Source: Streptosporangium saharense
GTDB taxonomy: Bacteria > Actinomycetota > Actinomycetes > Streptosporangiales > Streptosporangiaceae
Assembly: GCF_014203715.1 (NCBI RefSeq)
Contig: NZ_JACHJP010000002.1
Location: forward strand, 186,001-250,000
DNA: 64,000 nucleotides
Reading direction: 5' to 3'
The notes beneath the pieces were generated by a model. That model was given only the letters and a program-made list of their open reading frames with translations, had not been told where the DNA came from and did no database searches. A program made the position numbers and the translations under genes. This document shows, one piece after another, positions 15,789 through 48,235 of the stretch (positions within the stretch are counted from its first letter, which is position 1; each line of letters begins with the position of its first letter).

Positions 15789-17108
15789 TCACCCGGGACA
15801 GGTCGCGGGACTCACCTGGCGCAGGCGCTCCCCGATCAGGGCGGCCAGGCGGTCCAGGCCCTGGCCGACCGTCTCCGGGGTGACCTGGCTGAGGGAGAGC
15901 CTGAGCTGCCGTTCGCCGCCGCCGTCCGGGCAGAAGTGCGACATCGGCGTCCAGATGACGCCGTGGTGGCTCGCCGAGTGTTCGAGCAGTTCGTCGTCAA
16001 CCTGGAAGGGGACGGTCACCACGAGGAAGAAGCCGCCCGGCGGGGTGTTCCAGGTGACGCCGTGGCCAGGGGGGAAGCGCTCGGCCAGCCCGTCGAGGAC
16101 GAGCCGCAGGTTCCTGCGGTAGAGAGCGGCCTGTCTGAGGTTGGCCGCGCGCAGGCTGCAGCCGTGCTTGAGCAGGGCACCGCCGATGACGGCCTGGGCG
16201 ATCGGCGAGGTGTTCACCGTCGTCATGCTCTTGATCATCGCCAGCCGGTCGGCCAGGAGCGACCCGTCGGAGATCCGCTGGTCGGCCACGACGTAGCCGA
16301 TCCTGGCGCCGGGCAGGGCGGTCTTGGCGAAGGATCCCAGGTAGACGACCCTCCGCTCGGTGTCCATGGCCTTGAGGGTGGGCAGTGGTTCGCCTCCGCC
16401 GAAGAAGCCGTAGGGGTTGTCCTCAAGCAGGAGGAAGTCCTCCTCCGAGGCCAGGTCCAGCACCTCCTGACGCAGCCGAGGGGGCAGGCTGGCCCCGGTG
16501 GGGTTGGCGGAGTCCGGCACCAGATAGAGGGCGCGGGGCCGCAGCCCACGTGACCTGGCCCGGCCGATCTGGGCGCGCAGGTCGGCCAGGTCCAGCCCCT
16601 CATCCCCGCCGCGCACCGGCCAGACCGGCAGCCCGGTCAGCAGCGCGGCGCCGGTCAGGCCGACGTAGGTGGGGGAGACGGCAAGCAGCACGTCCTGCGG
16701 TGACGTGGCGAGGGCCCGCAGCACCAGGAACATCGCCTCCTGGCAGCCGACGGTCACCACGATCGACTCGGCGGGGACGTGGATGTCCTCGTCGATCCGC
16801 AGGTGCTCGCGGACCAGGTCGTGGATGATCCCCTTTGTCCTGCCGTACTGGAGCAGCAGGCGCCGGGCCTCCTGCTCGGTCAGGCCACGCGCGGTGCGCA
16901 GGTGGTCGTGGAAGACCCCAAGGTATTCGTGGACGTCGGCGACGTCGAAGAAGTCCTCGGCCGGTCGCCCGGCGGCGAAGGAGATCGCCGCCGGGTAGCG
17001 CATCGAGATCTCGTTGAGCAGGTTCATCGCGCTCATGGCCGGGTCGGTCAGCGAGCCGTGCAGGTCGTCCAGGCTCAGGTCGTGTCGGGTCGGTGTCTGT
17101 ACGGTCAT
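15789..17108 (-). CDS. hpgT: 4-hydroxyphenylglycine aminotransferase HpgT
   Basis: A 439-residue class I/II PLP aminotransferase of the HpgT group. It transaminates 4-hydroxyphenylglyoxylate to 4-hydroxyphenylglycine (Hpg), classically with tyrosine as donor, which regenerates 4-hydroxyphenylpyruvate. Visible motifs are S-A-N-P-T-G-A-S near residue 205, E-D-N-P-Y-G-F-F, the PLP lysine in G-S-F-A-K-T-A-L-P-G-A-R-I-G-Y, and a C-terminal R-L-S-L-S. The N-terminal D-P-A-M-S-A-M-N-L-L-N-E-I-S is characteristic of the family. The ATG at 17108 overlaps the hmo stop by four bases (ATGA). It is the last gene of the NRPS operon and supplies module 3. Confidence 0.92.
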   Translation of the reverse strand: MTVQTPTRHDLSLDDLHGSLTDPAMSAMNLLNEISMRYPAAISFAAGRPAEDFFDVADVHEYLGVFHDHLRTARGLTEQEARRLLLQYGRTKGIIHDLVREHLRIDEDIHVPAESIVVTVGCQEAMFLVLRALATSPQDVLLAVSPTYVGLTGAALLTGLPVWPVRGGDEGLDLADLRAQIGRARSRGLRPRALYLVPDSANPTGASLPPRLRQEVLDLASEEDFLLLEDNPYGFFGGGEPLPTLKAMDTERRVVYLGSFAKTALPGARIGYVVADQRISDGSLLADRLAMIKSMTTVNTSPIAQAVIGGALLKHGCSLRAANLRQAALYRRNLRLVLDGLAERFPPGHGVTWNTPPGGFFLVVTVPFQVDDELLEHSASHHGVIWTPMSHFCPDGGGERQLRLSLSQVTPETVGQGLDRLAALIGERLRQVSPATCPG

Positions 17109-18217
17109 GGGGTCTTTCCCGGGAAGTAGGGCATGGAGGCGACCCGCAGACGCGTCGCGGACCGTAGGTCGGGGCAGCCCGCGAGGCCGAGGGCGTTGCG
17201 CAGCTCGGTCTCCAGGAGGGAGAGCACCCGGGCGCAGCCGCTCTCGCCCCCGGCCGCCAGGCCCCAGATCACCGGGCGGCCGAGCAGGACGCCGGAGGCG
17301 CCGAGCGCGAGCGCGGCCAGGATGTCGGAGCCGCTGCGGATGCCGCTGTCGAGGAGCACCTGGAACCGCGCGTCGGGCAGCCCCGCGACCGCCTCGGCCA
17401 CGGCGGGCAGCGCCATGGCGGCGGGGACGGCCTGGTCGAGCTGGCGGCCGCCGTGGTTGGAGACGACCACGGCCCGCGCGCCCTCGGCCGCCGCGCGCAC
17501 GGCGTCCTGGGGGTCGAGCACCCCCTTGAGCACCAGCGGCAGCCGGGTCCGCTCGCGCAGCCAGGCGACGTCGTGCCAGGTGACGGCGGGAGAGAAGAGC
17601 TCGGCCGTGTGCGAGGCGATGGCGGAGGCGTCCTTGGTTCGCCGGTGGGCGCGGCCGGAGGAGCCCTCGTCCAGCAGCGCGGCCCGGACCGTGGGCGGCA
17701 GGGTCATGCCGTTGGCCGCGTCGCGCAGCCGCCGTCCCATGAAGGGCACGTCGACCGTGACGACCAGCGCCTCGACGCCCGCCTCCTCCGCCCGCCGTAC
17801 CAGATCGAGGAGTCTGCCGCGGTCGCGCAGCCAGTAGAGCTGGAACCACAGGACCGCGCCGGTCGCGGCGAGTTCGTCGAGGCCGACGCTGCTCAGCGTG
17901 CCCACGGTGAAGGGCACGCCCGCCGTGGCGGCGGCCCGTGCGGTGGCCAGTTCCCCGTCCGGGTGGAAGAGCCGGTGGTAGGCCACCGGTGCGATCGCCA
18001 CCGGCAGGTTCGCGCCGCTCTCGACGAGCGTCGTCTTGGTGTCGCAGGCCGAGACGTCGGCCAGGACGCGGGGGACCAGGGCGACGCGGTCGAGCGCCGC
18101 CCTGTTGCCCGCGACCGTCCATTCGCGTTCCGCGCCCCCGTCGAGCCAGTCCCAGACAGGGGTGTCCAGTACGGCCCTGGCCTCGGCGGCGAAGTCCGTC
18201 ACGGACAGCCCGGTCAT
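17105..18217 (-). CDS. hmo: 4-hydroxymandelate oxidase Hmo
   Basis: A 370-residue FMN-dependent alpha-hydroxyacid oxidase. It oxidises 4-hydroxymandelate to 4-hydroxyphenylglyoxylate, the second Hpg step. It shows the TIM-barrel pattern: F-Q-L-Y-W-L-R-D-R-G near residue 130, V-T-V-D-V-P-F-M-G-R-R, L-K-G-V-L, the active-site V-S-N-H-G-G-R-Q-L-D, and the phosphate-binding D-S-G-I-R-S-G-S-D and L-G-R-P. Length is usual for glycolate-oxidase relatives. Start ATG at 18217 overlaps the stop of the upstream fusion gene by four bases, and its own stop overlaps hpgT, so the three are translationally coupled. Confidence 0.92.
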   Translation of the reverse strand: MTGLSVTDFAAEARAVLDTPVWDWLDGGAEREWTVAGNRAALDRVALVPRVLADVSACDTKTTLVESGANLPVAIAPVAYHRLFHPDGELATARAAATAGVPFTVGTLSSVGLDELAATGAVLWFQLYWLRDRGRLLDLVRRAEEAGVEALVVTVDVPFMGRRLRDAANGMTLPPTVRAALLDEGSSGRAHRRTKDASAIASHTAELFSPAVTWHDVAWLRERTRLPLVLKGVLDPQDAVRAAAEGARAVVVSNHGGRQLDQAVPAAMALPAVAEAVAGLPDARFQVLLDSGIRSGSDILAALALGASGVLLGRPVIWGLAAGGESGCARVLSLLETELRNALGLAGCPDLRSATRLRVASMPYFPGKTP

Positions 18218-20286
18218 CCCGTGCTCTCCCTGGCGCTGTTGTTCTGCAGTTCGACGGCCTCGTACAGGGCGCGCACGTTGTTGCTGCCGAAGGTCCTGGC
18301 CTTGGCCCGCTCGATCACCTCGTAGAAGAAGGTGCCGCGCGGGTGCTCCGAGCGGGTGAAGATCTGGTAGAGCTGGCCGTCGTGGTCCTGGTCGGCCAGC
18401 AGGTGCAGGTCCTGGAGCTGCCGCACGGAGTGGCGCATCGGGGTGAGCCGGTCGAGCAGCCGGTCGAAGTAGACCTCGGGGGCGCGCAGGAAGGGCACGC
18501 CACGCTCGGCCATCGTGCCGACGGTGACGACGATGTCGCGTGAGTCGAAGGCGACGTGCTGCACCCCGGCGCCGCCGTGGTCGGCGAGGAAGGTGACGAT
18601 CTGGCCGCCCGAGTTCACCGAGAGCGGCTCGATCAGGGTGAAGGTGACGGTCCGGTCGGCGTTCTGCACGACCGTGGAGTCCATGCCGAGCGCGCCGATC
18701 TCGATCCGCTCGGAGAAGATGGTGGAGAAGCCGAAGACCTCGTTGTAGCGGCGGACGGTCTTGTCCAGCTCGCCCAGCGGCAGGCAGATCGCGAAGTGGT
18801 CGATGGTCCGCAGCCCGACCCCGCCGCCTCTGACGGGAAGCGGGTCGGGCAGGCCGGGGATGCGTCCCTCGGGGACGCCGGGGGCGCGTTCGAGGAGGGT
18901 GTGCCCGATGTCGCCGAAGGCGGAGACCGTGGCGGCGACGCATCCCGCGTGCTCGACGGGCCGGGACAGGCCGTCGGCGCCGCGTTCGACCAGCTCGGTG
19001 TAGGTGGCGCCCGCGTCGGCGACCCGCAGCACGATGTCGGCGACGCCGTCCCCGTGCCGCCTCAGGTAGCCCGTCCCCGGATGCGCGGGCGACAGCGGCT
19101 GGGTGAGCAGGACGCGGATGCCGTCCTGGCCGAGCAGCGCGGAGAGCTGCTCCTCGTATCCGGCGCGGGGGCTCGGCGGGATCAGCAGGTCGAAGCCGTA
19201 GCCCGTGGTGAGCCGGTCGATCTGCGAGGCGATGTCCTCGACGTAGAGTTCGATGTGGTCCAGGGTGACGTCAACAGGCATGGTGCTCTCGTTCTTGAGG
19301 GTGGAAAGCGCGGTGACCACCGCGTCGTTGGCCACCTGGTCGCCGACGGCAAGCCGGATGGCCCGCCCCGGGTAGAGCCGGGCGGCCACGCCGTACCGTT
19401 CGAGGGCGGCCCGCGCGAGGTCGAGCCGGGCGGGGTCGCCCGTGGTGATCCACAGGAAGTTGGTACGGCTCGGCGTGACGGACCAGCCGAGGGCGGTCAG
19501 TCTCTGGCGCAGCCGGTCGCGCTGGTGGGAGATCAGCCGGATGCGCTGCCGTACCTCGTCGTCGGCGGCTATGGCGGCCCGGACGGCGGCGAGCTGGAGT
19601 TGGCCCGGGGTGTAGGGGACCTGGTGCGGGGTGACGCGCTCGACGATCCCGGCGTCGGCCATCGCGTAGCCGATCCGCAGCGCGGCCAGGCCGTGTGACT
19701 TGGAGAAGGTGCGCAGGACCACGAGGTTGGGCCAGTCGGCCAGGCGCGTGGCCACCTCGGGGGCGCCCAGGTCGGGGGCGAAGTCCACGTACGCCTCGTC
19801 GAGCAGGATGACCACGGACGACGGGACCAGGGCGAAGAAGGCGGTCAGTTCGTCCCAGGTGTAGACGGTCCCGGTGGGGTTGTGCGGGTTGCACAGGACG
19901 ATCAGCCTGGTCCGCTCGTCGATCCGTTCGGCCATGGCGGTCAGGTCGTGTCTGGCGTCCTCGCCGAGCGGCACGGCGACCGCCTCGGCCTGGGCCATCG
20001 CGCAGAGCATCGGGTAGACGTCGAAGCAGGGGTCGCTGTGGATGACCCTGTCGCCGGGGCTCAGCAGGCCGCGGAACAGGTCGTGCGCGACGCCCGCGGA
20101 GCCGGTGCCGACGAGCACCTCGCCCGGCTGGACGCCCTGCCAGTCGGCGATCGTCCGGGTCAGCGAGGCGGGCCGGAACTCGGGGTAGCGGTTGAGGCCG
20201 TCGATCGCCCGCATCAGCGCGGCACGGACGGAGGGCAACGGGCCGAAGGGGTTCTCGTTCTGCGCCAGGAGGTGTCTCATCGTCAT
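18214..20286 (-). CDS. hmaS: HisC-like aminotransferase fused to 4-hydroxymandelate synthase
   Basis: One open frame of 690 codons with no stop between two enzymes. Residues 1-335 are a HisC/aromatic aminotransferase: N-E-N-P-F-G-P-L, N-P-H-N-P-T-G-T, D-E-A-Y-V-D-F, and the PLP lysine in R-T-F-S-K-S-H-G-L-A-A-L-R-I-G-Y. Residues 336-690 start at an internal Met (ATG at 19281) and are a HmaS of normal length (355). Metal ligands appear in D-H-F-A-I, V-Q-H-V-A-F and F-F-Y-E-V-I-E. HmaS turns 4-hydroxyphenylpyruvate into 4-hydroxymandelate. The aminotransferase could feed it from tyrosine, or serve the methyltransferase product. A weak GAGAG before the internal ATG means separate HmaS synthesis cannot be excluded. 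Confidence 0.85.
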   Translation of the reverse strand: MTMRHLLAQNENPFGPLPSVRAALMRAIDGLNRYPEFRPASLTRTIADWQGVQPGEVLVGTGSAGVAHDLFRGLLSPGDRVIHSDPCFDVYPMLCAMAQAEAVAVPLGEDARHDLTAMAERIDERTRLIVLCNPHNPTGTVYTWDELTAFFALVPSSVVILLDEAYVDFAPDLGAPEVATRLADWPNLVVLRTFSKSHGLAALRIGYAMADAGIVERVTPHQVPYTPGQLQLAAVRAAIAADDEVRQRIRLISHQRDRLRQRLTALGWSVTPSRTNFLWITTGDPARLDLARAALERYGVAARLYPGRAIRLAVGDQVANDAVVTALSTLKNESTMPVDVTLDHIELYVEDIASQIDRLTTGYGFDLLIPPSPRAGYEEQLSALLGQDGIRVLLTQPLSPAHPGTGYLRRHGDGVADIVLRVADAGATYTELVERGADGLSRPVEHAGCVAATVSAFGDIGHTLLERAPGVPEGRIPGLPDPLPVRGGGVGLRTIDHFAICLPLGELDKTVRRYNEVFGFSTIFSERIEIGALGMDSTVVQNADRTVTFTLIEPLSVNSGGQIVTFLADHGGAGVQHVAFDSRDIVVTVGTMAERGVPFLRAPEVYFDRLLDRLTPMRHSVRQLQDLHLLADQDHDGQLYQIFTRSEHPRGTFFYEVIERAKARTFGSNNVRALYEAVELQNNSARESTG

Positions 20287-21311
20287 CACACCACGTCGAG
20301 GACGTAGAGCCAGGAGTGCGGGGTGGCGAACGGTTCGACCCTGGCGATGCGCAGGCCGGCGTCGGTGAAGATCCGGTCGTAGGTGGCCTTGGTGTGCAGG
20401 GGGACGCCCATCATGGCGTGGGCCAGCTCGAACCCGACCGAGAAGATCGGCTGCATGCTCTCGTGGTCGATCCGGTCGCGGAGCATGGTGTCGCCCAGGA
20501 CGAACCTGCGGGCGTTGGGGAAGGCCTCCCGCATCCTCGGCATGATGTCGGCGCGGGTTCCCGGGTTGGCGAGCAGGTCGTGCAGGAGGAAGAAGCTCAT
20601 CACCGTGTCCACCTCGCCGGTGATCTCCAGTTGCCGCTGCCTGTCGAGGACGTCGAGCACGTCGGCCTGGACGGCCTGGACCCGGTCCTGCAGACCGGCC
20701 GAGGCGATGTCGCGCCTGGCCATGAGCGTCGCGGGCTCGCTGATGTCGATGCCCATGCCCCGGGTGCCGGGCCGCTGGGACACGACCCGGCTGACCCTGG
20801 CGCTGTTGCCGCTGCCGAGGTCGGCGATGGTGCCGAAGTCGACGTCGTCGAGCACCTCGTCCAGCAGCGCGGCGAACATGGCCTGGTCGCACTGGGCGGA
20901 GCCGAGCGCGACCATCGCCTCGTCGCGGTGGATGTCGCTCGGGTCGTAGTGGCGTAAGCCGTCCGTGAGCTGCCCTGCGTTGCCGAACACCTCGTTGTAG
21001 CCGCCGACCGCCCAGGTGAAGTAGCCGCGCGAGCGGGCGATCTCCCTTCCGGCCTCGGTGGGGATGTAGACGTCGTCGTCGGCCTTGAGGTAGCCGCAGC
21101 AGGTCGCGGCGCGCAGCAGGGCCAGGGCGCGTCCGTTGTCCGCGTAGTCCTCGGTGTAGAGCCGGTCGCCCCTGCCGATCCGCTCCATCAGGCCGAGCCG
21201 GTCCAGGGCGAAGATCACGTTGGCGGCGATGTAGCCGTTGTAGGCGTCGGCCGGGGCGATCGGGGTCGAAGCCTGGCCGTGCCACTGCTCGGGAATGTCG
21301 TACTTGTTCAT
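20286..21311 (-). CDS. SAM-dependent alpha-keto-acid C-methyltransferase (MppJ-like)
   Basis: A 341-residue class I methyltransferase. The SAM site is I-A-D-L-G-S-G-N-S-A-R-V near residue 165, followed by G-M-G-I-D-I-S. The C-terminal stretch F-P-N-A-R-R-F-V-L-G-D-T, P-I-F-S-V-G-F-E-L-A-H-A-M-M-G-V closely follows MppJ, the phenylpyruvate beta-C-methyltransferase of mannopeptimycin. Relatives make beta-methyl-Phe, 3-methyl-Glu and methylated Leu precursors. It lies between the last NRPS gene (16-base gap) and the aminotransferase fusion (stop and start overlap by one base). A methylated keto acid followed by transamination is therefore likely. The substrate is not determined; aromatic or branched keto acids are the candidates. 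Confidence 0.85.
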   Translation of the reverse strand: MNKYDIPEQWHGQASTPIAPADAYNGYIAANVIFALDRLGLMERIGRGDRLYTEDYADNGRALALLRAATCCGYLKADDDVYIPTEAGREIARSRGYFTWAVGGYNEVFGNAGQLTDGLRHYDPSDIHRDEAMVALGSAQCDQAMFAALLDEVLDDVDFGTIADLGSGNSARVSRVVSQRPGTRGMGIDISEPATLMARRDIASAGLQDRVQAVQADVLDVLDRQRQLEITGEVDTVMSFFLLHDLLANPGTRADIMPRMREAFPNARRFVLGDTMLRDRIDHESMQPIFSVGFELAHAMMGVPLHTKATYDRIFTDAGLRIARVEPFATPHSWLYVLDVV

Positions 21312-21327
21312 GATTTTTCGTCCAATC

Positions 21328-24300
21328 TCAGGAGTTCGGAAACAAACGGAGGTGGGAGTCGAGCACCGGGCCGATGACCGACAGCGCGTCGGCGCCGGTC
21401 ATCTCGCCGTGGGTGACGGGAACGGGGTGGATGTCGAGGCGGCCGGTCACGTGGGGCCGCCAGGCCGCCGGGTCGGGAGCGTCGCCGGGACGGTCCTTCG
21501 CGGCGAGGAAGAAGAGCACGTCGCCGTCATAGGCCCGCTTGGGCCTGTCGGCGGCGAGCGCCAGGTTGGCCAGGAAGACCCCGACGACGCGGGCGACGGC
21601 CTCGCCGCTCAGCCCGGACAGCGGTCCCTGACCGTGCCCGACGAGCGCGGCGTGCTCCTCGGGGGTGCTGGGCCAGGCGGGGATCTCACCGACGGGCTGC
21701 CCGAGGGAGGTGAGGATCGCGGCGAGCAGGGCGGGATCCCTGTCGGAGGGGTGTTCGTCGAGCTCCGGGTAGCCGTCCAGGATCGCGAGCAGCTCGACCC
21801 GCTCGCCCGTGGCCTGGAGTTCGGCGGCGACCGCGTGCGCGACCACCCCGCCGAAGGACCAGCCGAGCAGCGCGTAGGGGCCCTCCGGCTGGACCTGCCT
21901 GATCTGCTCGACGTAGGTCAGGGCCAGCTTCTCCACGCTGGCCGGGTGCAGGGACAGATCGCCCAGGCCGGGCGCCTGGAGCCCGTAGATCGGCCGGTCG
22001 GCGTCGAGGTGTCCGAGCAGGCCGGTGTAGACCCAGCTGATGCCCGCCGCCGGGTGCACGCAGAACAGCGGGTCGCGTGTCCCGCGCGCCCTGATCGGCA
22101 GCAGCACCGGGAAGCTCTCCCGGTTCGGGGAACCGCCGAGCGCGGCCAGCTCGGCCACGGTCGGCGCCTGGAACAGGTCCCGGACCCCGACGTCGAGCCC
22201 GGCCCGAAGCCGGATCTCCGCAACCAGCCTGGCCGCGAGCAGCGAGTGACCGCCCAGGTCGAAGAAGTTGTCGTCGATGCCCACCCGCTCCAGGCCGAGG
22301 ACGTCGGCGAACAGTTCGCAGAGCGCCTCCTCCCGGGGGTCGCGCGGCCCTCTGCCGTCCTCGGCCGCGGCGTATCCGGGGGCGGGCAGCGCCCGCTGGT
22401 CGAGCTTGCCGTTCGGGGTCAGCGGCAGCGCGGCCACGACAACCAGCGCGGCGGGCACCATGTGCTCGGGCAGCGTCCCTGCCAGTACGGCCCGCAGCAC
22501 GGCCACGTCGATCTCCGTACCGGCCCTGGGGACGAGATAGCCGACGAGCCGGTCGTCACGGACGACGACCGCGCTGTGGGCCACGTCCGGCTGGGCGCCG
22601 AGGACCGCGTTGACCTCGCCGAGTTCGATGCGGAAGCCCCGGATCTTGACCTGGTCGTCGATCCTGCCGAGATACTCCAGCTCCCCGTCCCGGTTCCAGC
22701 GGGCCAGGTCGCCGGTGCGGTACATCCGGGTGCCGGGCGGGCCGTAGGGGTCGGCGACGAACCTTTCGGCGGTCAGCGCGGGCCGGTCGTGGTAGCCACG
22801 GGCCAGGCCCTCCCCGGCGACGAACAGCTCACCCGCGACCCCCACGGGGACGGGCCGCAGCGCGGAGTCCAGGACGTGGACGCGCAGGCTGGGGATCGCG
22901 GTCCCGATGAGCGAGCGGCTCTGCCCCTCGGCGGTCGCAGCGTCCAGGGCCCGGTAGGTGACGTGGACCGTGGTCTCGGTGATGCCGTACATGTTGACCA
23001 GCACCGGGGCGTCGTCGGGGTGCCTGCCGTACCAGTCGGCGAGCCTGCCCAGGTCGAGCGCCTCACCGCCGAAGACGACGCCGCGCAGCGCCAGCTCCGT
23101 GCCCGGCTCTTCGGCCTGCATGAGCTGGTAGAAGGCAGCGGGGGTCTGGTTGAGCACGGTGACGCGCTCCCTGGCCAGCAGGGCGAGGAACTCCCTCGGG
23201 GAGCGGCTGACCTCGTACGGCACGACGACAAGGCGCCCGCCGTACAGCAGGGGACCCCACAGCTCCCAGACGGAGAAGTCGAAGGCGCAGGAGTGGAACA
23301 GCGTCCACACGTCGTCGGGGCCGAAGGAGAAGTGGCGCTCGGTCGCGGCCATGAGCTGCACCACGTTGCCGTGCGGGACCACCACGCCCTTGGGCCTGCC
23401 GGTCGAGCCCGAGGTGTAGATGACGTAGGCGGGGTTCTCCCGCACGGGACCGGTCACGGGGCTGGTCGCCGCGTGGCCGCCGAGGTCCACCTCGTCCAGC
23501 AGGACGTACGGTAGCGCGCTCGGCGGCAGTCCGGCCACGGTCGAGGCCGTGCTCACCAGCAGGACCGGGGCCGCGTCGTCGAGGGTGTAGGCGATGCGGT
23601 CGGCCGGGTAGCCGGGGTCGATCGGCACGTAGGCGCCACCCGCCTTGACGACCGCGACGATCGCCACCACCAGCTCCAGCGAGCGCGGCAGCGCCAGGGC
23701 GACCAGCCGCTCGGGGCCGACCCCGCGTTCGACCAGCAGGTTCGCCAGCCGGTTGGCGCGCTCGTCCAGCTCGGCGTAGGTCAGCTCCTCCTCGCCGAAG
23801 GTCAGCGCCACCCGCTCGGGACCGTCGGCCGCCCGCGCCTCGAAGAGGTCCTTCAGCGTGCCCGGGACCGGGGTGAACTCCTGATAGTCCAGCAGGCGCT
23901 CCCGCTCGGCGGGCGTCAGCAGGTCCACCTGGCCGACCCGCAGGCCGGGGTCCGCGGCTACCGCTTCGAGCACCCGGACGAACCGGCCCGCGATCTCCTC
24001 GGCCGTGATCCGGTCGAACAGCTCGGTGGCGTACTCCAGTACCCCGCTCAGCCCGTCGCGCGTCTCGCACAGCCCGAAGGACAGGTCGAACTTGGCGACG
24101 TCGGTCTCCAGCTCCATGACCTTCGCCCGCAGTCCGGGCAGCTCGGGGGCCTCTCCCGTGGTGTCGTGCAGCGTCAGCATCACCTGGAAGAGCGGGTGCC
24201 TGGCCATCGAACGGGCCGGGTTGAGCACCTCGACCAGCCGCTCGAACGGCACGTCCTGGTGACCGTAGGCGTCCAGGTCCAGCGTCCGCACCCGGCCGAC

Positions 24301-25209
24301 CAGCTCGGTGAAGGTCGGGTTCCCCGAGATGTCGGTCCGCAGCACCAGCGTGTTGACGAAGAACCCCACCAGGTCGTCCAGCGCCTCGTCGGTGCGCCCG
24401 GCGATCACGGTGCCGACGGGCAGGTCGGTGCCCGCGCCGAGCCCGCCGAGCAGTACGGCCAGCGCCGCCTGGACCACCATGAACAGGCTGGCGTTCTCCC
24501 GCCTGGCCAGCGCCACGAGGGCCGCGTGCGTCCCGGCGTCGAGCCGCAGCTCGACCGAGTCGCCCCGGTTCGTCGCGACCACCGGCCTTGGCCTGTCGTA
24601 CGGCAGCGCCAGCTCCTCGGGCGCTCCCTCCAGCGCGGTCCGCCAGTGGGAGAGCTGCTCGTCGTGGACGGTGTCGAGGAGTTCCCGCTGCCAGAGGGCG
24701 TAGTCGGCGTACTGCACCGGCAGCGGCGCCCAGCCGGGTGCCTTCCCCTCCAACCGCGCCGCGTAGGCGGTGGCCAGGTCGCGCAGCAGCGCCCCGATGG
24801 ACCAGCCGTCCCCGGCGATGTGGTGCATGACCAGCGCGAGCACGTGCTCCCCACGGCCCAGGACGAGGAGCGAGGCCCGGATCGGCAGCTCGACCGACAG
24901 GTCGAAGACGTGTCCCTGGGCCTGGCCGAGGCACTCGCGCAGGTGCCGTTCGTCCCTGACCTCCCGCACGTGCAGCTCGGGCCGCACCCCGCCCAGCACC
25001 TCCTGGTACGGCACGCCGCCCACGACCGGGAACACCGTGCGCAGCACCTCGTGCCGCTCCACCACGTCGCAGAGCGCCTCCCGCAGGGCGGCCAGGTCGA
25101 GCGGGCCGGAGAGCCGCAGCGCCAGCGGCGAGTTGTAGAGGCCGCCGACGCCCCTCATCTGCTCGATGAACCACAGCCGCGACTGGGCGGGGGAGAGCGG
25201 CACCCGCTC
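21328..25209 (-). other. NRPS module 7 (C-A-T-TE), predicted Thr, release
   Basis: Pocket residues D-F-W-N-V-G-M-V-H-K, one change from the classical Thr code D-F-W-N-I-G-M-V-H-K. The type I thioesterase releases the heptapeptide by hydrolysis or cyclisation; the sequence does not say which. Confidence 0.8.
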
Positions 25210-34440: not shown

Positions 34441-34470
34441 GGTCTTCCTCCGACGGAGAAAACGGGCTGC

Positions 34471-37400
34471 TCAGCGCCTGGGCCGCAACGCGGGCCTGGC
34501 CGGGCCGGACTTGGGGAGTTCGTCGACGACACCGGCGACGGTTGGGGCGTTGAACAGGGAGCGGATCGGCAACTCGGCGCCGAGGACGCTACGGATGCGG
34601 CTGACCAGCTTGGTGGCGAGCAGGGAGTGCCCGCCCAGGTCGAAGAAGCCGTCGTCGATGCCCACCCGCTCCAGGCCGAGGACCTCGGCGAACAGGCCGC
34701 ACAGGATCTCCTCCCGTGGGGTGCGCGGGCCACGGCCACCGGCCGTTCCGAAGTCGGGGGCGGGCAGCGCGCGCCGGTCGACCTTGCCGTTGGCCGTGAC
34801 CGGCAGGGCGTCGAGGGTCACGACCGTCGGCACCATGTAGGCGGGCAGCCGTTCGGCCATGTGTTCGCGGACCTGCTCCGGGGTGGCCTCCCCGACGACG
34901 TAGGCGACCAGTCGTTTGTCACCGGGTTTGTCCTCGCGGGCCACCACGACCGCCTGCCGGACCGAGGGGTGCTCACCGACCACGGCCTCGATCTCGGCGA
35001 GCTCCACCCGGAAGCCACGGATCTTCACCTGGTCGTCGCTGCGGCCGACGAACTCGATCTCTCCCGAGGCGCTCCACCGGACCACGTCCCCGGTGCGGTA
35101 CATCCGCCCGCCGTACGGACAGGCCACGAACCGCTCGGCCGTCAGGGCCGCTCTGCCGACGTAGCCCCGGGCCAGGCCGGTGCCCGCGATGTACAGCTCG
35201 CCCGCCACTCCGGCCGGGACGGGCCGCAGCCCCTCGTCCAGCACGTAGACGCGGGTGTTGTCCATCGGACGCCCGATGGAGAGGCGTCCCGACCCGGTCT
35301 CAAGCTGGGTCACGCAGAGCGTCGTCTCCGTCGGGCCGTACAGGATGCGGATCGTGACGCCGGGGTTGGCCGCGCGCACCCGCCGCACCGCGTTCGGCGA
35401 GACCACGTCACCCCCGGTCAGCACCTCCCGCACCCCCGCGAAGGCGTCGGGATCCTCCTCCGCGATCACCCGGAACAGACCGGCCGTGACGTGGACGTGG
35501 GTGAGGTCATGCTGTCTGACCAGCGAACGAATCCCGGCCGCGTCCATGTTGCCGGGTGGCGCGACGACCACCTGACCACCGGAGAGCAGCGGCACCCACA
35601 GCTCGTAGGTCGAGGCGTCGAAGGCGTGCGGCGCGTGGAACAGGATCCGCTGCCTGTACGGCTGCCGCCAGCACCTGTCCGTCACCAGGTCGATCACGTT
35701 CTGGTGGGTGATCGTGATGCCCTTCGGCACCCCCGTGGACCCCGAGGTGAACATGACATAGGCGGCGTTGTCGGGCCTGGTCGTGTCCGGCACGGGCTCT
35801 GTGGCCTCAGAAACGGCGGTCGGGGTGATGGTCGTGATCTGCAGGTCGTGGACGGTGTCGGTGAGCAGGAGGGTGGCTCCGGCGTCGGTGAGGATCTGCT
35901 GGAGGCGTTCTTTGGGTTGCTGGGGGTCGAGAGGCAGGTAGGCGGCTCCGGCCTTGAGGATGGCGAGGATCGCGATGACCAAGGTGGGGGAGCGGTCCAT
36001 GAGGATCGCGACCCTCCGGGCACCGGTGAGCCGGTGCGCGAGGTGGTTGGCCTGGGCGTCGAGCTCGGCATAGGTGAGCTGACTGTCGCCGGAGACCACG
36101 GCCACGGCGTCAGGGGTCTTAAGGGCCTGTTCGGTGAACAGCTTGTGCAGGGTGCCGACGACCTGGGGGACTGCGGTGTCGTTCCACCCGGTCACCAGCA
36201 GGTCGCGTTCCTCGTCGGAGAGCACGTCGATGGCCGTGATCGCACGATCGGGGTCGTCGGCGATCGTCCGCAGCACCCGGACCAGCCGTTCGGCCAGCGT
36301 TGTCACGGTCCCGTGGTCGAACAGGTCGGTGGCGTACTCGATCATGCCGGTCAGGCCGTCGGCGGTCTCGGCGAAGTTGAAGGCCAGGTCGAACTTCGCG
36401 ACGTCCAGGTCGAAGGGGTACTCCCGGCACTCCAGCCCGGCGAACTCCTCGGGCAGCGGGATCTGCCCGTTCATCGCGATGAGGGTCTGGAAGAGCGGAT
36501 GCCTGGCCGGGACGCGCTCCGGGTTCAGATGCTCGACCAATCGCTCGAACGGCACATCCTGGTGCGTGTAGGCGTCCAGGTTGGCCGCCCGCACCCGGCC
36601 AAGAAGCTCGGTGAAGGTCGGATTCCCCGACAGGTCGGTCCGCAGCACGAGCGTGTTGACGAAGAACCCCACCAGGTCGTTGAGCGCCTCGTCCGTGCGT
36701 CCCGCGGTGGGGGTGCCGAGCGGGATGTCGGTCCCTGCTCCCAGGCGGCTGTAGAGCGTGGACACTGCGGCCTGCAGCAGCATGAACAGGCTGACGTGGT
36801 GCCCGGCGGCCACCCTGGTCAGCCTGGCGTGCAGTTCGGCGTCCACCTGGAACGGCGCGTTCCCACCCCGATGGCTCGCCCGGTCCGGTCTTGGCCTGTC
36901 GTACGGCAGCGCCAGCTCCTCGGGCAGTCCGTCCAGCGCGGCCTGCCAGTGGGCGAGTTGCTCGTCCTGGAGGCCGCCGAGCAGGTCACGCTGCCAGAGG
37001 GCGTAGTCGGCGTACTGCACCGGCAGCGGCGCCCAGTCAGGCATGTCTCCTGCCAGCCGGGCCCGGTAGGCGAAGGCCAGGTCGTCGAAGAAGGGCCTCA
37101 GCGACCAGCCGTCCCCGGCGATGTGGTGCAGCAGCAGGACCAGCACGTGTTCGTCAGCGCCGTGGGACAGCAGCCAGGCCCGCACCGGGATGTCCACGGC
37201 GATGTCGAAGACGTGCTCGACGGAGATGCGCTCAACCGTCGCACGGGCCTCGGCGTCGTCCGCGCAGACACGCGTCTCCAGCACAGGTCGGGCGTCCTCC
37301 ACGACCCGCAGCCGTGGCAGCCCCCCGACCGAGGGGAACGTCGTCCGCAGCGCCTCATGCCTGTTGACCACATCGGTCAGGGCCTTTTCCAGTGCCCCGG

Positions 37401-37529
37401 CGTCTACGGGACCGCGCAGCCGTACGGCGAAAGGAGTGTTGTAGAGGGCGCTCGGTCCCTCCAACTGTTCGATGAACCACAGGCGTTGCTGGGCGAAGGA
37501 CAGCGGGACGTGCTCGGGCCTTTCGAGGG
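34471..37529 (-). other. NRPS module 3 (C-A-T), predicted 4-hydroxyphenylglycine
   Basis: Pocket residues D-A-Y-H-L-G-L-L-C-K match the established Hpg code family (D-[AI]-[YF]-H-L-G-L-L-C-K). The hmaS, hmo and hpgT genes in the same operon supply the substrate, giving two independent lines of support. Confidence 0.85.
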
Positions 37530-40500
37530 TTGTGAGCGCGGGCCGTACGGCACCGGCCTGTTCGGTGGACAGGTAGCGCTCAAGGCGGGCCACGTCGGGG
37601 TTCTGGAAGAGCGCCCTGATGGGCAGCTCTGTTTTCAACACGGCGCGGATGCGGCTGACCAGCTTTGTCGCCAGGAGCGAATGCCCACCGAGGTCGAAGA
37701 AGCCGTCGTCAACGCCGACCTTCTCGACACCGAGGACCTCGGCGAACAGCCCGCACAGGATCTCCTCGCGGGGGGTACGCGGCTCACGTCCTTCGGTGAC
37801 CTCGAACTCGGGGGCGGGCAGCGCGCGACGGTCGATCTTCCCGTTGGCCGTGACCGGCAGGGCCTCCAGGGCCACGACCACCGGCACCATGTAGGCGGGC
37901 AGCCGCTCGGCCACGTGCTCACGCACCTCCTCCGGAGAGGTGTCCCCGACGACGTAGGCGACCAGCCGTTTGTCACCGGGCTGGTCCTCCCGCACCACCA
38001 CGACGGCCTGCCGGACCGTGGCGAGCTCGCCGACCACGGTCTCGACCTCGCCCGGCTCGATCCGGAAGCCCCGGATCTTCACCTGGTCGTCGGCACGGCC
38101 CACGAACTCCAGCTCTCCGGAGGTGGTCCAGCGGACCAGGTCCCCGGTGCGGTACATCCGCCCGCCGTACGGACAGGCCACGAACCGCTCGGCGGTCAGC
38201 CCCGGCCTGCCGACATACCCCCGGGCCAGACCGGAACCCGCGAGGTACAGCTCACCCGCGACGCCTGCCGGGACGGGCTGCAAGGCCGTGTCCAGGACGT
38301 AGACCCGCATGTTGTCCAGCGGACGCCCGATGAGCACCGACGCCGAGGACATCCGGTGGCAGGTCGCGAAGGTCGTGGTCTCGGTGGGGCCGTAGCCGTC
38401 CACCACGACCACCCCGGGACAGCTCTCCAGCACCCGTCGCACCGCACCCGGTGCGACCACGTCACCGCCGGTCCACACCTCCTTCACGGCCGCGAAGCAC
38501 TCCGGTGCTTCCTGCGCGACCAACGTGAACAGCCCGGCCGTCAACCACAGCGCGTCAACCTCACCGTCGGCCAGCAACCGCGCGAAGTCAGCCGTAGCGA
38601 GCTGCCCCGGAGGGGCCACGACCACCCGGCCGCCCGACAGCAGCGGCACCCACAGTTCGAACGTCGAGGCGTCGAAGGCCAGCGGCGAGTGGACCAGCAC
38701 ACTCCCTGAAGTGATGCCGTCGAAGCAGCGGCTGTGGGCCAGGTCGACCACGTTCCGATGGGTGACGGCGACGCCCTTCGGCACCCCCGTCGAGCCCGAG
38801 GTGAACATCAGGTAGGCGCGGTTGTCGGGCAGCACGCGGACGACGGGCCGCGCAGGAACCCGCTCGGCCTCGTGCACCCGGAGGGTCCGCAGCTCCCGGG
38901 TCAGCGGGTGCTCCCGGTGCGCCTCGTCGACCAGCAGCAGCGTGGTGCCGCTGTCGGCCAGCACGCGGTTGAGCCGCTCCAGGGGATACCGGTCGTCGAG
39001 CGGCACGTACAGGCCGCCGCCCCTGAGGATCGCGAGCAGCGCGGTCACCTGGTCGGCGGAGCGGTCCATCAGCAGCGCGACCGGGGTCTCCAAACCCATG
39101 CCCGCGAAGGCCAGCCGGTCGGCCAGTCGTTCGGCCCGCAGGTCGAGTTCCCGGTAGGTCAGCTCCTGGCCGTCGCAGGTCAGGGCGACGGCGTCCGGGG
39201 TGCGTGCCACCTGGGCGGCGAACAGTTCGGGCAGGCTCGCCTCGGGAACCGGGTTCGCGGTGTCGTTCCACCGGTCGAGGATCTCGGTCCGCTCCTCGGG
39301 CGTCAGCACGTCGGCGTGGCCGACCGGCGAGGCCGGGTCGTCCAGCAGGTGGCCGAGCAGCCGCCCGAACCTGCCGAGCAGGGCCGTGGCCGCCTCGTCG
39401 GTGAAGGCCGAGGGCTGGTGGTCGAGCTGCAGGCCGAGCCGTTCGCCGGGGGTGACCGCGAGCAGCAGCGGGTAGTGGGCGCTGTCGGCGTCCTCGACCA
39501 GCGTGACGTCCAGGACGCCCTCGATGCCCAGGGGGCCGCTGTCCGGGTAGTTGCCGTGGACGACGACCGTGTCGAACAGGCCGCCGAGCCCGGCGCAGCG
39601 CTGGATCTCGGCCAGTCCCAGGTGCTGGTGGTCCAGCAGTTCCGCCTGTTCGGCCTGGACCCGGGTGAGCAGCGCCGCCCAGCTCTCCCCGGGGCGGATC
39701 CTGGTCCTGACGGGGACGGTGTCGATCAGCAGGCCGACCATCCGCTCGACGCCGGGGATCTCGTGCGGGCGCCCCGAGACCGTCATGCCGAAGGCCACGT
39801 CACCCCGGCCGGTCAGCCGGGTCAGCAGCACTCCCCAGACCGCCTGGACCACGGTGTTGACGGTCACGCCGTGCCGTCTGGCGAGCCGTACGAGCCGGTC
39901 GGTGGTCTCCGCGGGCAGTTCCGTCCGCAGGCGCCGGGGCAGCTCGGGGACGCCCTGTCCTGGCGCGACCAGCGTGGGCTCCTCGAACCCGGCCAGCGCC
40001 TCGGTCCACGCCCGCCGCGCCGCCTCCCGGTCCTGCCGGTCCACCCAGACCAGATAGTCCCGGTACGGCACCCGGTCCGGCAGCGCGGAGTCGTCGCCGT
40101 GGCTCGCGTACAGGGCCCACAGTTCCTCGGCGAAGATCGGCATGGACCAGCCGTCGAGCAGGATGTGGTGGGCGGAGACGACGAGCCGGTGGTGGCCGGG
40201 TGTATCGCGCAGCAGCAGCCAGCGCACCAGCGGCGGGCGGGACAGGTCGAAGCGGCGGGCGCGCTCCTCCTCGACGATCCGCGCGGCGTGCGCCTCGAAG
40301 TCGTCAACGCCGGACAGGTCGATCTCGGTGAAGGGCGCCCGCACGCCGTCCACGACGACCTGGAACGTCGAGCCGTCCTCGCCCCGGTGGAAGGCGGCAC
40401 GAAGGTTGGGGTGGCGTTCCAGCAGGGCCGTCGCGGCGGCGCGCAGGCCGGGCACGTCGAGGGTGCCGGTCAGGTCGAAGCTGCAGGCGGCGGTGTAGAC

Positions 40501-43500
40501 GTCGGCGGCCCCCAGGTCGTACTCGGAGTGGAAGGCCATGCCGCGCTGTGTCGCGGTGGCGGGCCACACGTCGGCGACGTCGGCGGGCCGGTGCGCCGCG
40601 ACCAGGGCGTCGAGTCCGGCCTGGTCGATCGTGACGAGGGGGAAGTCGGAGGGGGTGTGGGCGTTCGCGGTGCCGCGCCGTACGTGGGCGGCGATGCCGC
40701 GCAGCGCGGCGAACCAGGCCTCGGCCAGCTCGGCGGTCTCCCGCTCGGTGAGCAGTTCGCCCGCCCACGTCCACTCGGCCAGCAGCGTCGGCCCGTGCGG
40801 GGTGTCGAGGGTGAGGGCGTCGAGGCCGAGGGCGTGCGGCAGGGACATGCCGTCCTCGCCACCCTCCCCGACCAGGTCGGCCCCGGCCAGCCACTCCTCG
40901 CCGGTGACGTCGTCCATCGGGAAGCGGCCCAGGTAGTTGAACTCGATCCTCGGTTCCGGGTGCTCGCCGAGGACGGCTCCGGTCTCGGGGTTGAGATATC
41001 TGAGCAGGCCGTAGCCGATGCCGTGGTCGGGGATGGCGCGCAGTTGCTCCTTGACCCGTTTGAGCGCGACGCCGACTCCCGTGCCTCCCCGGGTCACCTC
41101 GGGCCAGGGCACCGCGCCCGGGTCGAGCCGTACCGGGAAGACCGAGGTGAACCAGCCGACCGTCCGCGACAGGTCCACCCCTTCGACGATCTCCTCCCTG
41201 CCGTGCCCCTCGACGGCCACGAGCACGGGCGTCCCAGAGCCGGGGGTACGGCGGGCGCGCCAGTGTCCGAGGGCGAGGGAGAAGGCGGTCAGCAGCACGT
41301 CGTTGACCTGCGCGTGGAAGGCGGCGGGGGCCCGGGTGAGCAGCGGTTCCGTGAGGTCGGGCGGCAGCGCGAGCCGTAGCGAGCCGACGGTCGCGTAGGT
41401 GTCGCGGGCCGGGTCGAAGGCGCGCTCACCGAGCGGTGTCTCCGGCGTCTCCAGGATCTCGGCCCAGAAGGGCAGTTCGGCGATCCGCGTGGCATCCTTG
41501 GCGGCCTCGCCCAGCCGTCGTGCCCAGTGCCTGAAGGAGGTCGGCACCGGTTCCAGGGCCGTTTCCGGTTCGCGCAGCGCCGCGAGCAGGTCGGCCTGGA
41601 GGGTCCGCCAGGACACCCCGTCGATGACCAGGTGGTGGACGACGAGCAGCAGCCGCGTGCCGTACCTCACGGCCTGGACCATGACCCCGGCCTCGGGCCG
41701 TAATCGTGCCGGTGCCTCGCGCGCCGCCGTCGCGTAACCCGACTCGTCGGTCACGACCCGGAGCACGTCCTCGGCGCGCACCGCGCCCTCCGGCTGGACG
41801 TGGAGGCTCCACGGCCGCACGGCCAACGAGGAGGTCCGCGTCCGCAGCACGTCATGCCGGTCCAGTACGGCCCGCAGCGTGGCGGCCAGGTGTTCGTCGG
41901 TGGTTCCCTCGGGGAGGGACAGGCTCATCGACTGGTGGTATCCGTCCAGTGGGCCTTCCTGGGCGGCCAGCCAGGCGATGACGGGGGTCGGCGGCACCTC
42001 GCCGAGGTTCGCGCCCGCCTCCTCCTTCACGACGGGCCGCTCGACCGTCCCGGCGAGCCGCGCCAGGGCCGCCACGCTGCCCGCGGTGAAGACGTCACGC
42101 GGACTGATCCGCAGCCCGGCCCTGCGGGCCTCCGAGACGAGCTGGATCGCGGTGATGGAGTCGCCGCCGAGTTCGAAGAAGGACTCCTCGACCCCCACGT
42201 TCTCCAGGCCGAGGACCCTCCGGTAGAGCTCACAGAGGGTGCCTTCGAGGCCGTCAACGGGTGTGGCCGCGTCGGAACGGCCGAAGACCGGGGCGGGCAG
42301 GGCCCTCCTGTCGATCTTCCCGGCCGTGTTGAGCGGGAAGGAGTCGAGCACGACGATCGCGGCGGGCACCATGTAGTGCGGCAGCCTGCCCGCGCAGTGT
42401 TCGCGCAGCTCGGCGGGGTCGGCCGTGCCGACGACGTAGCCGACGAGGCGTCTGCGGCCAGGCTCGTCCTGCCGGGCCAGCACCACGGCCTGCCGTACGG
42501 CGGAGTGCTCGGTCAGGACCGCCTCGACCTCGCCGGGCTCGATGCGGAAGCCACGGATCTTCACCTGGTCGTCGGCGCGGCCGAGGAAGTCGAGTTGCCC
42601 GTCCGCGCGCAGCCGTACCCTGTCGCCGGTGCGGTACATCCGCTCGCCGGGCTCCCCGAAGGGACAGGCCACGAAGCGTTCCGCCGTCAGGCCCGGCCTG
42701 CCCACGTAACCTCGGGCCAGTCCCGGTCCCGAGACGTACAGCTCGCCCTCGGTCACCGGGCGCAGGGTGGCGTCCAGGACGTGGATTCCGGTGTCCACGC
42801 AGGGCAGGCCGATCGGTGGTTCCTCGTCGCCGGTCAGGGGGCCGCTCATGGTGGCGGTGACCGTGGTCTCGGTGGGGCCGTAGCCGTTGAAGACGGCGCG
42901 CCCGGCACTCCAGCGTGCGACCAGTTCCCGGGGTACGGCCTCGCCGCCGACGACGATCGCGCGCAGGGTGGGCAGCGGCACGTCGGGCAGGGTGGCCAGC
43001 ATCGCCGGGGACAGGTCGGCGTGCGTGACGCCGTACTCGTCGATCAGGGCGGCGAGCTCCTCGCCGACCATCTGGCTCTGCTCGCGCGGCAGCACGAGGG
43101 CGGCGCCGTTGGCGAGGGTGTTGACGATGTCCGAGACGGAGACGTCGAAGCTGAGGGAGGCGCCCTGCAGCACGCGGCTGGTGGCGTCGATGCCGGTCAG
43201 GCCCGCGTGGGTGGCGACCAGGGCGGCGAGCCCGGCGTGGGTGACGGCAACGCCCTTGGGGGTGCCGGTCGAGCCCGAGGTGTAGATGACGTAGGCGGTG
43301 TTGGCCGGGGAGACGGGCCGCAGCGGCGCCGTCTCCTCCGGACCCGTCGGGAGGTCCGCCAGCAGGAGGGGAAGGCCGCAGTCGGGCAGGCCGGGGGCCG
43401 TCTCCGCCGAGGTGAGCACCAGCTTCGCCCCGGAGTCGGCGGCCATGCGCGCGATCCGGTCGGCGGGCAGGGAGGGATCGACCGGCAGCCAGGCCGCCCC

Positions 43501-43749
43501 GGCCTTGGCGATCGCGTAGAGGGCCGTGATGGCCGTGACGGACCTCGGCAGCGCCAGGGCGACGACGTCCTCCGTGCCGACTCCCCGCCCGGCCAGCAGC
43601 CGGGCCAGCCGACCGGCTCTGCGGTCCAGTTCGGCGTAGGTGAGACGGGTTTCCCCCGCCACCAGGGCGACGGCGTCCGGCGTCCTGGTCACCTGCGCCC
43701 CGATCAGCTCCGGCAGCGTCACCGGGGATACACCACCAACCGCGGACAT
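34471..43749 (-). CDS. Nonribosomal peptide synthetase, A-T-E-C-A-T-C-A-T (modules 1-3)
   Basis: A 3092-residue initiating synthetase that starts with an adenylation domain. Order: A1 (A4 motif F-D-V-S-V-S-D near 203), T1 with L-G-G-D-S-I near 530, E with H-H-L-V-I-D-G-V-S near 708 and F-N-Y-L-G-R-F, C2 with H-H-I-L-L-D-G-W-S near 1197, A2 near 1695, T2 near 2021, C3 near 2210, A3 near 2713, T3 near 3040. G-G-D-S in T1 is the form expected before an epimerase, and C2 differs from all others here, as expected of a D-L condensation domain. Predicted substrates are X1 (to D form), Val and Hpg. Start ATG 43749 follows GGAGGG. The end is a carrier domain, handing over to the C-first synthetase downstream. 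Confidence 0.95.
37530..40589 (-). other. NRPS module 2 (C-A-T), predicted Val
   Basis: Pocket residues D-A-F-W-W-G-G-T-F-K, one change from the well-known Val code D-A-F-W-I-G-G-T-F-K. The condensation domain is of the type that follows an epimerase. Confidence 0.75.
40590..43749 (-). other. NRPS module 1 (A-T-E), substrate unassigned, product D-configured
   Basis: Pocket residues read by alignment to the classical ten positions are D-V-S-D-V-G-G-V-T-K. This is not a code I can assign. It shares D-V-S...G.V.K with Trp-type pockets as I remember them, and D-V.D-V-G with Arg-type pockets. The epimerase makes the first residue D. No starter condensation domain precedes it, so the peptide should have a free amino terminus. 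Confidence 0.6.
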
Positions 43750-43780
43750 GCGGTTCCCTCCTTCGGCTTTCCCGCGTGCG

Positions 43781-43996
43781 TCAGCTGTTGTCGTCCATGG
43801 CGGCGATGAGGCTCTTCGGGCGCATGTCGGTCCACGACTCCTCGATGTGGTCGAGGCACTCCTGCCGGGCGGCGTCCCCGAAGACGACCTCCCATCCGGC
43901 CGGGACCGGGCTGAAGGTCGGCCAGAGCGAGTGCTGTCCCTCGTCGTTGACGAGCACGTAGTAGCGGGAGTCCGGGTCCTCGAACGGGTTGGCCAT
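43781..43996 (-). CDS. MbtH-like protein
   Basis: A 71-residue MbtH-family chaperone for adenylation domains. It shows the diagnostic pattern [26 protein letters not shown], then [11 protein letters not shown]. The conserved Trp and Ser residues that contact adenylation domains are present. It lies 31 bases before the initiating NRPS gene, whose adenylation domains probably need it for solubility or activity. It has a clear ribosome site. Confidence 0.95.
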
Positions 43997-44030
43997 GACG
44001 GTGTTTCCTTTCTCGGGCTTTTCAGGGTTT

Positions 44031-44837
44031 TCAGGCGAGGACGAAGAGGAGGTTGGAGCGGGTGGGGCGCCGCGCGGGCGGGGCCTCCAGGCGGGCGAAG
44101 AGGTCGCGGGCCAGTTCGGGCAGGTGCTCGGCGAGGTAGAAGTGGCCGCCGGGGAAGGTCAGGGTGGAGAACGCGCGGGCGGTCGCCCTGGACCAGGCCG
44201 CGACCGACTCCGCCCCGACGCCCCGGTCCTGCGTGCCGTAGTAGGCGTGGACGGGACAGTCCAGCGGGGTCGTTGCCGGTTCGGTGTAGCGGTCGAGCAG
44301 GCGGTAGTCCGCCCGGATCGCCGGCATGATCAGCTCACGCAGTTCCAGGTTGTCGAAGACGCACATGTCGGTTCCGCCGAGCTGTCCGACCCGTGCGATC
44401 AGGGCCTCGTCGTCGGCGTTTCCGAGTCCGAGCCGGGGCGCCAGCCAGGGCGCCGCGCAGCTTGAGGCGAACAGGGTCCTCAGCGTGATCCCGTGCCAGG
44501 CCGCGAGCCGTACCGCCACCTCGTAGGCGACCAGCGAGCCCAGGCTGTGGCCGAAGAAGGCCAGCGGCGCGTCGTCGAAGCGCGCGCAGGCGTTGGCGAT
44601 GGCTCCGGCCAGCTCGTTCATGTCCTCGGCGAAGGGGTCGCAGAGCCGTTCCTCCCGCCCGGGGTAGCGGACCGCGAGGAGCTCGACGCCTTCGGGCAGC
44701 ACCGATTTCCAGGTACGGAAATATCCGGCGGAGCCCCCGGAGTGCGGGAAGCAGACCAGCCTGACGTTCGGCCTGGGGCACGGCTTTATCGCGTGGAACT
44801 GACGCTCGGAGGTCGCGACCGGGTTCGTCGGTGGCAT
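44031..44837 (-). CDS. Type II thioesterase
   Basis: A 268-residue editing thioesterase that removes misprimed or stalled acyl groups from NRPS carrier domains. It has the family start [20 protein letters not shown], the nucleophile [11 protein letters not shown] near residue 110, the acid region around H-A-Y-Y-G-T-Q-D, and His in F-P-G-G-H-F-Y-L. The ATG at 44837 has AAAGGA seven bases upstream; an in-frame ATG at 44873 has no ribosome site. It is the first clear gene of the leftward NRPS operon, 34 bases before mbtH. Confidence 0.92.
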
Positions 44838-48188: not shown

Positions 48189-48235
48189 CGTCTTCGCCTT
48201 CGTTCTCGGTGTCATGATCGTTCACATCGTCACAT

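Follow-up and report, generated by a model that had tools for sequence, protein, structure and literature searches.

A seven-module peptide synthetase operon of Streptosporangium saharense predicted to make an Hpg-containing heptapeptide, with a methyltransferase that may supply its sixth residue

Organization of the operon

We analysed a 64,000-nucleotide stretch of the Streptosporangium saharense genome (assembly GCF_014203715.1, contig NZ_JACHJP010000002.1, positions 186,001–250,000 of the forward strand), which is hereafter called the window. From 44873 down to 15789, it carries a leftward row of genes for a type II thioesterase, an MbtH-like protein, two nonribosomal peptide synthetases (NRPSs), a methyltransferase, an aminotransferase and three enzymes of hydroxyphenylglycine (Hpg) supply. 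With moderate confidence, we read this row as a complete-looking operon for a heptapeptide, D-X1-Val-Hpg-Val(Ile)-Val-X6-Thr, in which the methyltransferase and the aminotransferase would supply X6. The genes and domains concerned are as follows.

44031..44873, minus strand: editing (type II) thioesterase, at the head of the row, 34 nt upstream of the MbtH gene (Pfam Thioesterase, 3.1e-43)
43781..43996, minus strand: MbtH-like protein, 71 residues, a chaperone of adenylation (A) domains (Pfam MbtH, 6e-29)
34471..43749, minus strand: NRPS A, 3092 residues, predicted modules 1 (X1, epimerised), 2 (Val) and 3 (Hpg), from Pfam, motif order and pocket codes
42181..43716, minus strand: A domain of module 1, code DVSDVGGVTK; its DVSD pocket recurs in every cluster of the family in which module 1 was read
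21328..34440, minus strand: NRPS B, 4370 residues, predicted modules 4 (Val/Ile), 5 (Val), 6 (X6) and 7 (Thr) and a releasing thioesterase, from Pfam, motif order and pocket codes
25396..26943, minus strand: A domain of module 6, code DATQWGVAIK, the candidate for loading the methyltransferase product; same code in the sister clusters read, linked to the methyltransferase
20286..21311, minus strand: S-adenosylmethionine-dependent methyltransferase, 341 residues, MppJ-like, putative 2-oxo acid beta-methyltransferase (best PDB match, MppJ)
19282..20286, minus strand: HisC-like aromatic aminotransferase of class I, forming the N-terminal half of a 690-codon frame (Pfam Aminotran_1_2, 2.3e-58)
18214..19281, minus strand: 4-hydroxymandelate synthase (HmaS), forming the C-terminal half of that frame (best PDB match, PCZA361.1, 2r5v, 8.4e-87)
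17105..18217, minus strand: 4-hydroxymandelate oxidase (Hmo), ATG and stop checked (Pfam FMN_dh, 5.9e-123; PDB 5zzp, 9.5e-109)
15789..17108, minus strand: putative hydroxyphenylglycine aminotransferase (HpgT), 439 residues (Pfam Aminotran_1_2, 1.8e-25)

The intergenic gaps along the row are, in order, 34, 31, 30, 16, −1, −1 and −4 nt; when Hmo is started at the ATG at 18217, it overlaps the aminotransferase-HmaS frame by 4 nt. As no gap between neighbours exceeds 34 nt and some of them overlap, the whole row is likely one operon. No site was found in a scan of 44000–47000 for the sigma-70 consensus. Two longer frames were considered and rejected. In 15789–18122, taken as an Hmo-HpgT fusion, the leading ∼340 codons are read-through and HpgT starts at 17108. 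In 18214–21285, taken as a methyltransferase fusion, more than 300 leading codons are read-through overlapping the methyltransferase gene, and the true start is 20286. The corrected genes are thus HpgT (15789–17108), Hmo (17105–18217), aminotransferase-HmaS (18214–20286) and the methyltransferase (20286–21311). The Pfam E-values of the synthetases, MbtH and the thioesterases range from 0 to 6e-29, which rules out chance for these matches. The tight row with MbtH, type II thioesterase and three Hpg genes, proposed in a preliminary description made from the letters alone, is therefore borne out by the Pfam and PDB matches and by the short gaps.

Domain order and pocket codes of the synthetases

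Both Pfam and motif order confirmed the two collinear leftward synthetases of that description. NRPS A contains three A domains, three condensation-type (C-type) domains, one of which is an epimerisation (E) domain, and three carrier (T) domains, arranged as A-T-E-C-A-T-C-A-T. NRPS B contains four C, four A and four carrier domains and one thioesterase (TE), arranged as (C-A-T)x4-TE. The row thus holds the modular C, A and carrier domains and the releasing thioesterase of an NRPS cluster. The sole E domain lies in module 1, so that only residue 1 is predicted to be epimerised.

The ten-letter pocket codes were taken from an alignment of the A domains. From module 1 to module 7, they are DVSDVGGVTK, DAFWWGGTFK, DAYHLGLLCK, DAYFWGVTFK, DAFWWGGTFK, DATQWGVAIK and DFWNVGMVHK; the codes read earlier by eye agree with them wherever they were given. 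The accessible part of PMC9113097 contains a table in which DFWNVGMVHK stands for Thr, DAYWWGGTFK and DAYFWGVTFK for Val, and DIYHLGLLCK for Hpg. The Hpg pocket of module 3 differs from the listed one at one residue. Val is favoured at residue 4, as DAYFWGVTFK is listed there as Val; the table assigns this code to the proteins bracketed after LpmD, the code of LpmD itself being DAYFWGVCFK. The code of modules 2 and 5, DAFWWGGTFK, is absent from the accessible text of PMC9113097, the nearest listed codes being DAYWWGGTFK and DAFWLGGTFK, both for Val. By code, residues 2, 3, 4, 5 and 7 are predicted to be Val, Hpg, Val (Ile possible), Val and Thr, and the order D-X1-Val-Hpg-(Ile/Val)-Val-X6-Thr proposed earlier stands. 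Neither the X1 nor the X6 code had a printed match in the paper searches, and searches of solved structures with the A domains of modules 1 and 6 returned general NRPS matches only.

Hpg supply and the aminotransferase-HmaS fusion

HmaS, Hmo and HpgT, all present in the cluster, accompany the Hpg-type pocket of module 3. The name HpgT is suggested by fold, position and gene company: the PDB search gave class I aminotransferases of other names, without a single HpgT, and its counterparts, 72–74% identical, come after Hmo in the six sister clusters with Hpg genes.

The aminotransferase (335 codons) runs into HmaS (355 codons) without a stop between them, giving one 690-residue protein. Its ATG at 20286 overlaps the stop codon of the methyltransferase gene (TGATG). 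The closest PDB match of the aminotransferase half is a putative phenylalanine aminotransferase (4r2n, 3.9e-56). We scored 8000 candidates for the same fusion, restricted to proteins of 0.55–1.75 times 690 residues, a range that most unfused enzymes fall outside. Within these limits, the only protein at E ≤ 1e-80 is P0121 of Streptosporangium sp. NPDC020145; it has 696 residues, carries the same fusion and is 91% identical over its full length. HmaS could also be translated separately from an internal start at 19281. If the fusion reflects a real coupling, it would condense the first half of the Hpg pathway into one compact enzyme.

As in the Hpg pathway of glycopeptide antibiotics, HmaS, Hmo and HpgT occur together, HmaS being nearest to PCZA361.1 and Hmo to a solved 4-hydroxymandelate oxidase; different from that pathway, HmaS is fused to an aminotransferase here. 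Typical of dalbaheptides are several E domains, cytochrome P450 cross-linking enzymes and, ahead of the thioesterase, an additional C-like X domain. A dalbaheptide glycopeptide was rejected as the product, since there is a single E motif, the thioesterase is preceded by no additional C-type domain, and family scans of the row proteins showed no P450 family.

The MppJ-like methyltransferase

In a search of solved structures, the methyltransferase matched MppJ best (1.8e-32, 116 bits, residues 14–324 of 341). Other solved methyltransferases reached at most 39 bits, the 2-ketoarginine methyltransferase 22 bits. Five MppJ-aligned residues, W, R, H, D and H, are shared by all 18 sequences compared (the query and its 17 closest homologues); we take them to be MppJ W99, R127, H243, D244 and H295, which presumably bind the metal and the 2-oxo acid. 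This numbering assumes a tag offset of 20, which was inferred. The position of MppJ S104 is occupied by Tyr in all 18 sequences. A 2-ketoarginine methyltransferase (NCBIfam TIGR04543) was rejected as the identity of the protein, which scores 71.7 bits against a curated cut-off of 425.

MppJ methylates phenylpyruvate, and an aminotransferase then yields beta-methylphenylalanine (PMC6117699 and the accessible part of PMC11496134). According to the accessible part of PMC6117699, its substrate is free phenylpyruvate, not phenylalanine or the finished aglycone. From the MppJ match, the chemistry of MppJ and the phenylalanine-aminotransferase-like partner, we infer that the methyltransferase product is a beta-methyl aromatic 2-oxo acid. 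The match and the conserved active site also strengthen the earlier idea of a beta-methyltransferase. MppJ and JomM are the phenylpyruvate beta-methyltransferases of mannopeptimycin and jomthonic acid, respectively; the likeness to MppJ lies in the sequence family and the aligned active-site residues. MppJ is a distant relative (116 bits over ∼310 residues), and it differs at the Ser104 position.

Sister clusters in Kitasatospora and Streptomyces

A contig search with the methyltransferase found six loci, 64–68% identical, in Streptomyces and Kitasatospora records. We also searched 394 genomes of the K. aureofaciens family, scoring the best 5 (methyltransferase) or 8 (A domain) candidates per genome; the methyltransferase matched at E ≤ 1e-60 in 21 of them, seven at 65–70% identity. 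At E ≤ 1e-40, it was found in one of the 16 Streptosporangium genomes searched, the window's own, and a methyltransferase of Streptosporangium algeriense shares 96% identity with it.

The same heptapeptide order is read in Kitasatospora aureofaciens ATCC 10762 and Streptomyces sp. CBMA123. Their Hpg, X6 and Thr pockets are identical to those of the window, the X1 pocket (DVSDIGSVIK) is similar, and the methyltransferase (65–66%, tblastn), aminotransferase, HmaS, Hmo and HpgT are all present. Unlike in the window, the aminotransferase and HmaS are separate, and module 4 has the pocket DAYWWGGTFK. In K. aureofaciens and CB02056, a frame that looks MFS-like by eye separates the aminotransferase from HmaS.

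Streptomyces sp. MJM8645 and CB02056 share X1, Val, Hpg and X6 with the window; however, their clusters have two modules fewer and end in a Phe/Tyr-type pocket instead of Thr, which gives the pentapeptide order X1-Val-Hpg-X6-Phe/Tyr. The partial loci of LS1784 and CBMA156 contain the X6-Phe/Tyr-TE portion and the tailoring genes. A further variant, X1-Val-X6-X6-Tyr, occurs in one Kitasatospora genome, G273 (loci L046–L048). The 60 kb read there contain the methyltransferase, the aminotransferase and MbtH, and no match above 60 bits to HmaS, Hmo or HpgT. As the two X6 domains of G273 are sisters (support 0.999), a copy of an X6 A domain seems to have replaced the Hpg domain.

Similar synthetases occur in S. 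saharense and in Streptosporangium sp. NPDC020072 and NPDC051022 (among the best 120 of 2508 proteins). Nine of these 120 carry the X1 or X6 code, including the window's own and that of CBMA123, and in 6 of 6 X6-bearing proteins X6 is followed immediately by Thr and then the thioesterase. The order in one of the six, P0135, is Val-Hpg-X6-Thr, which means that positions 4 and 5 are variable. The fusion, the sister clusters and the association of the X6 pocket with the methyltransferase, described below, all go beyond the preliminary description.

Which residue receives the methyl group

In the proposed pathway, the aminotransferase half of the fused enzyme would convert Tyr to 4-hydroxyphenylpyruvate and hand it to the HmaS half; Hmo and then HpgT would complete Hpg for module 3. 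The MppJ-like methyltransferase would beta-methylate phenylpyruvate or 4-hydroxyphenylpyruvate, both aromatic 2-oxo acids; the aminotransferase would convert the methylated acid back to an amino acid, and module 6 would load it as X6. The thioesterase would then free the chain from Thr7, in cyclic or linear form.

In the module 6 search of the 394 genomes, 30 A-domain loci were read among the matches listed. DATQWGVAIK occurs at seven of them, all in the seven genomes with the 65–70% identical methyltransferase, and the remaining 23 differ in code, 10 of these matching the Val code DAYWWGGTFK exactly. The second X6 domain of G273 has the same code in the same methyltransferase-bearing genome. 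All sister clusters read have the identical code, and no A domain that was read shows it outside genomes with this methyltransferase. In the corresponding search for X1-like pockets, codes were obtained for 28 of the 30 listed loci (L102 and L105 were left out), and X1-like DVADVGVVVK pockets were found in G279, G290 and G174, genomes without a methyltransferase match at 1e-60. X6 is therefore favoured over X1: among the domains read, its code occurs only with the methyltransferase, whereas X1-like pockets occur without a close one. On this evidence, X6 would be the beta-methylated residue, probably aromatic.

In a midpoint-rooted tree of the A domains of the window and five sister clusters, the X6 domains form one clade (0.974) that branches with the Val and Hpg domains; the X6 pocket thus appears to have been re-tuned from Val/Hpg domain stock.

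Several observations weigh against the assignment of the methyl group to X6. The chief weakness is that DATQWGVAIK is unlike the Phe/Tyr pockets of the family (DAWTVAAVCK, DAATAAAVCK and DASTVAAVCK), and the X6 domains group with Val-type domains. X1 is present as constantly as X6, so that co-occurrence alone cannot choose between them. The link between the X6 code and the methyltransferase is strong but not exhaustive, for further copies of the code could escape among candidates beyond the best 5 or 8 scored per genome. The NCBIfam 2-ketoarginine model also matches the methyltransferase, far under its cut-off. Methyltransferases that are 38–58% identical adjoin quite different genes; in the 8 of 14 such genomes that were read, no recognised A domain had the X1 or X6 code. 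Finally, the genome of G273 has relatives of HpgT (50%) and HmaS (46%) elsewhere, so the absence of Hpg genes concerns its cluster only.

The best-placed alternative keeps the same peptide and assigns the methyltransferase product to residue 1, for example as a beta-methylated basic or indole amino acid, X6 being an ordinary amino acid that an unusual pocket accepts. The Asp at position 278 of the module 1 pocket could face a basic or NH-bearing side chain, the DVSD pocket is constant in the family clusters whose module 1 was read, and the weak 2-ketoarginine match points the same way. However, the methyltransferase is much nearer to MppJ than to the solved 2-ketoarginine methyltransferase, and with X1-like pockets also found in genomes without a close methyltransferase, we consider this alternative unlikely. 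The clusters with these pockets in G174, G279 and G290 (L124–L129) combine the DVADVGVVVK module with Ser-like and Gly-like modules and a free-standing activating enzyme (DLLQVTVDSK or DLLQITVDSK).

A second alternative limits the aminotransferase to Hpg supply, converting Tyr into 4-hydroxyphenylpyruvate, and places the methyltransferase at a later stage, with the peptide, still carrier-bound or already released, as its substrate. This agrees with the single frame of aminotransferase and HmaS; it seems improbable to us, as G273 retains the aminotransferase beside the methyltransferase in a cluster without Hpg genes or an Hpg pocket, and MppJ acts on the free 2-oxo acid.

Returning to the assignment to X6, a wider proposal can be made tentatively: the clusters may represent a new hepta-/pentapeptide family, in which a Val-type A domain (now with the code DATQWGVAIK) came to accept a beta-methylated aromatic amino acid, one aminotransferase also starts Hpg synthesis via a fusion, and one Kitasatospora shows a natural swap of Hpg for X6. 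If true, a new adenylation code would be assigned, and the swap, together with the matching absence of precursor genes from the cluster, would be useful for engineering. The Hpg peptide family would also occur in several cultured strains, in which the product can be sought directly.

Search for a described product

The claim that no described peptide has this order held in the paper searches, which lay outside MIBiG, supplements and most subscription journals; no matching product was found, including among Hpg peptides of Kitasatospora or Streptosporangium. Within the same scope, no product was found for the sister clusters of K. aureofaciens ATCC 10762 and CBMA123, and the search for beta-methylarginine synthetases gave no paper. 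Searches with the pocket codes turned up only DAYFWGVTF, in PMC9113097, and the accessible parts of PMC13194151 and PMC4787774 mention no peptide resembling the predicted heptapeptide. The family may already be matched in MIBiG or in a subscription paper, both largely beyond these searches, and K. aureofaciens ATCC 10762 is a well-studied strain; nevertheless, with nothing matching the product or the X1 and X6 codes and only generic source names in the protein search, a known but unrecognised compound is doubtful. The cluster is an orphan of the ordinary kind, with close relatives in other soil bacteria.

Neighbouring genes and other features

Two genes adjoining the row are candidates for export and regulation.

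46929..48215, minus strand: major facilitator superfamily (MFS) exporter, candidate export gene (Pfam MFS_1, 1.1e-19)
45874..46932, plus strand: LuxR-type (GerE) regulator, candidate pathway regulator (Pfam GerE, 3e-07)

The MFS exporter had no match above 60 bits in the sister gene rows. Elsewhere in the window, outside the operon, a leftward pair of ABC exporter genes (MsbA/HepA-like) lies at 3518–7092, and the protein encoded at 8216–9514 combines tetratricopeptide repeats (TPR) with an aspartyl-protease-like domain and, judged by eye, begins with a Tat-like signal. The alpha/beta hydrolase at 13266–14129 resembles macrolide esterases, under the curated cut-offs. An ArsR-like regulator followed by a BAAT_C-type hydrolase domain is located at 48299–49764, and a SARP regulator of 899 residues like AfsR, under the AfsR cut-off, at 50226–52925. 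A 295-residue protein at 56843–57730 corresponds to the C-terminal domain of DnaB-type helicases, and a short protein of 408 residues at 58739–59965 carries pyruvate phosphate dikinase N-terminal and phosphoenolpyruvate (PEP)-utiliser domains. In the whole genome (8.5 Mb), 53 condensation-domain matches on several contigs indicate other NRPS clusters; one of these matches, on contig C8, contains an internal TGA.

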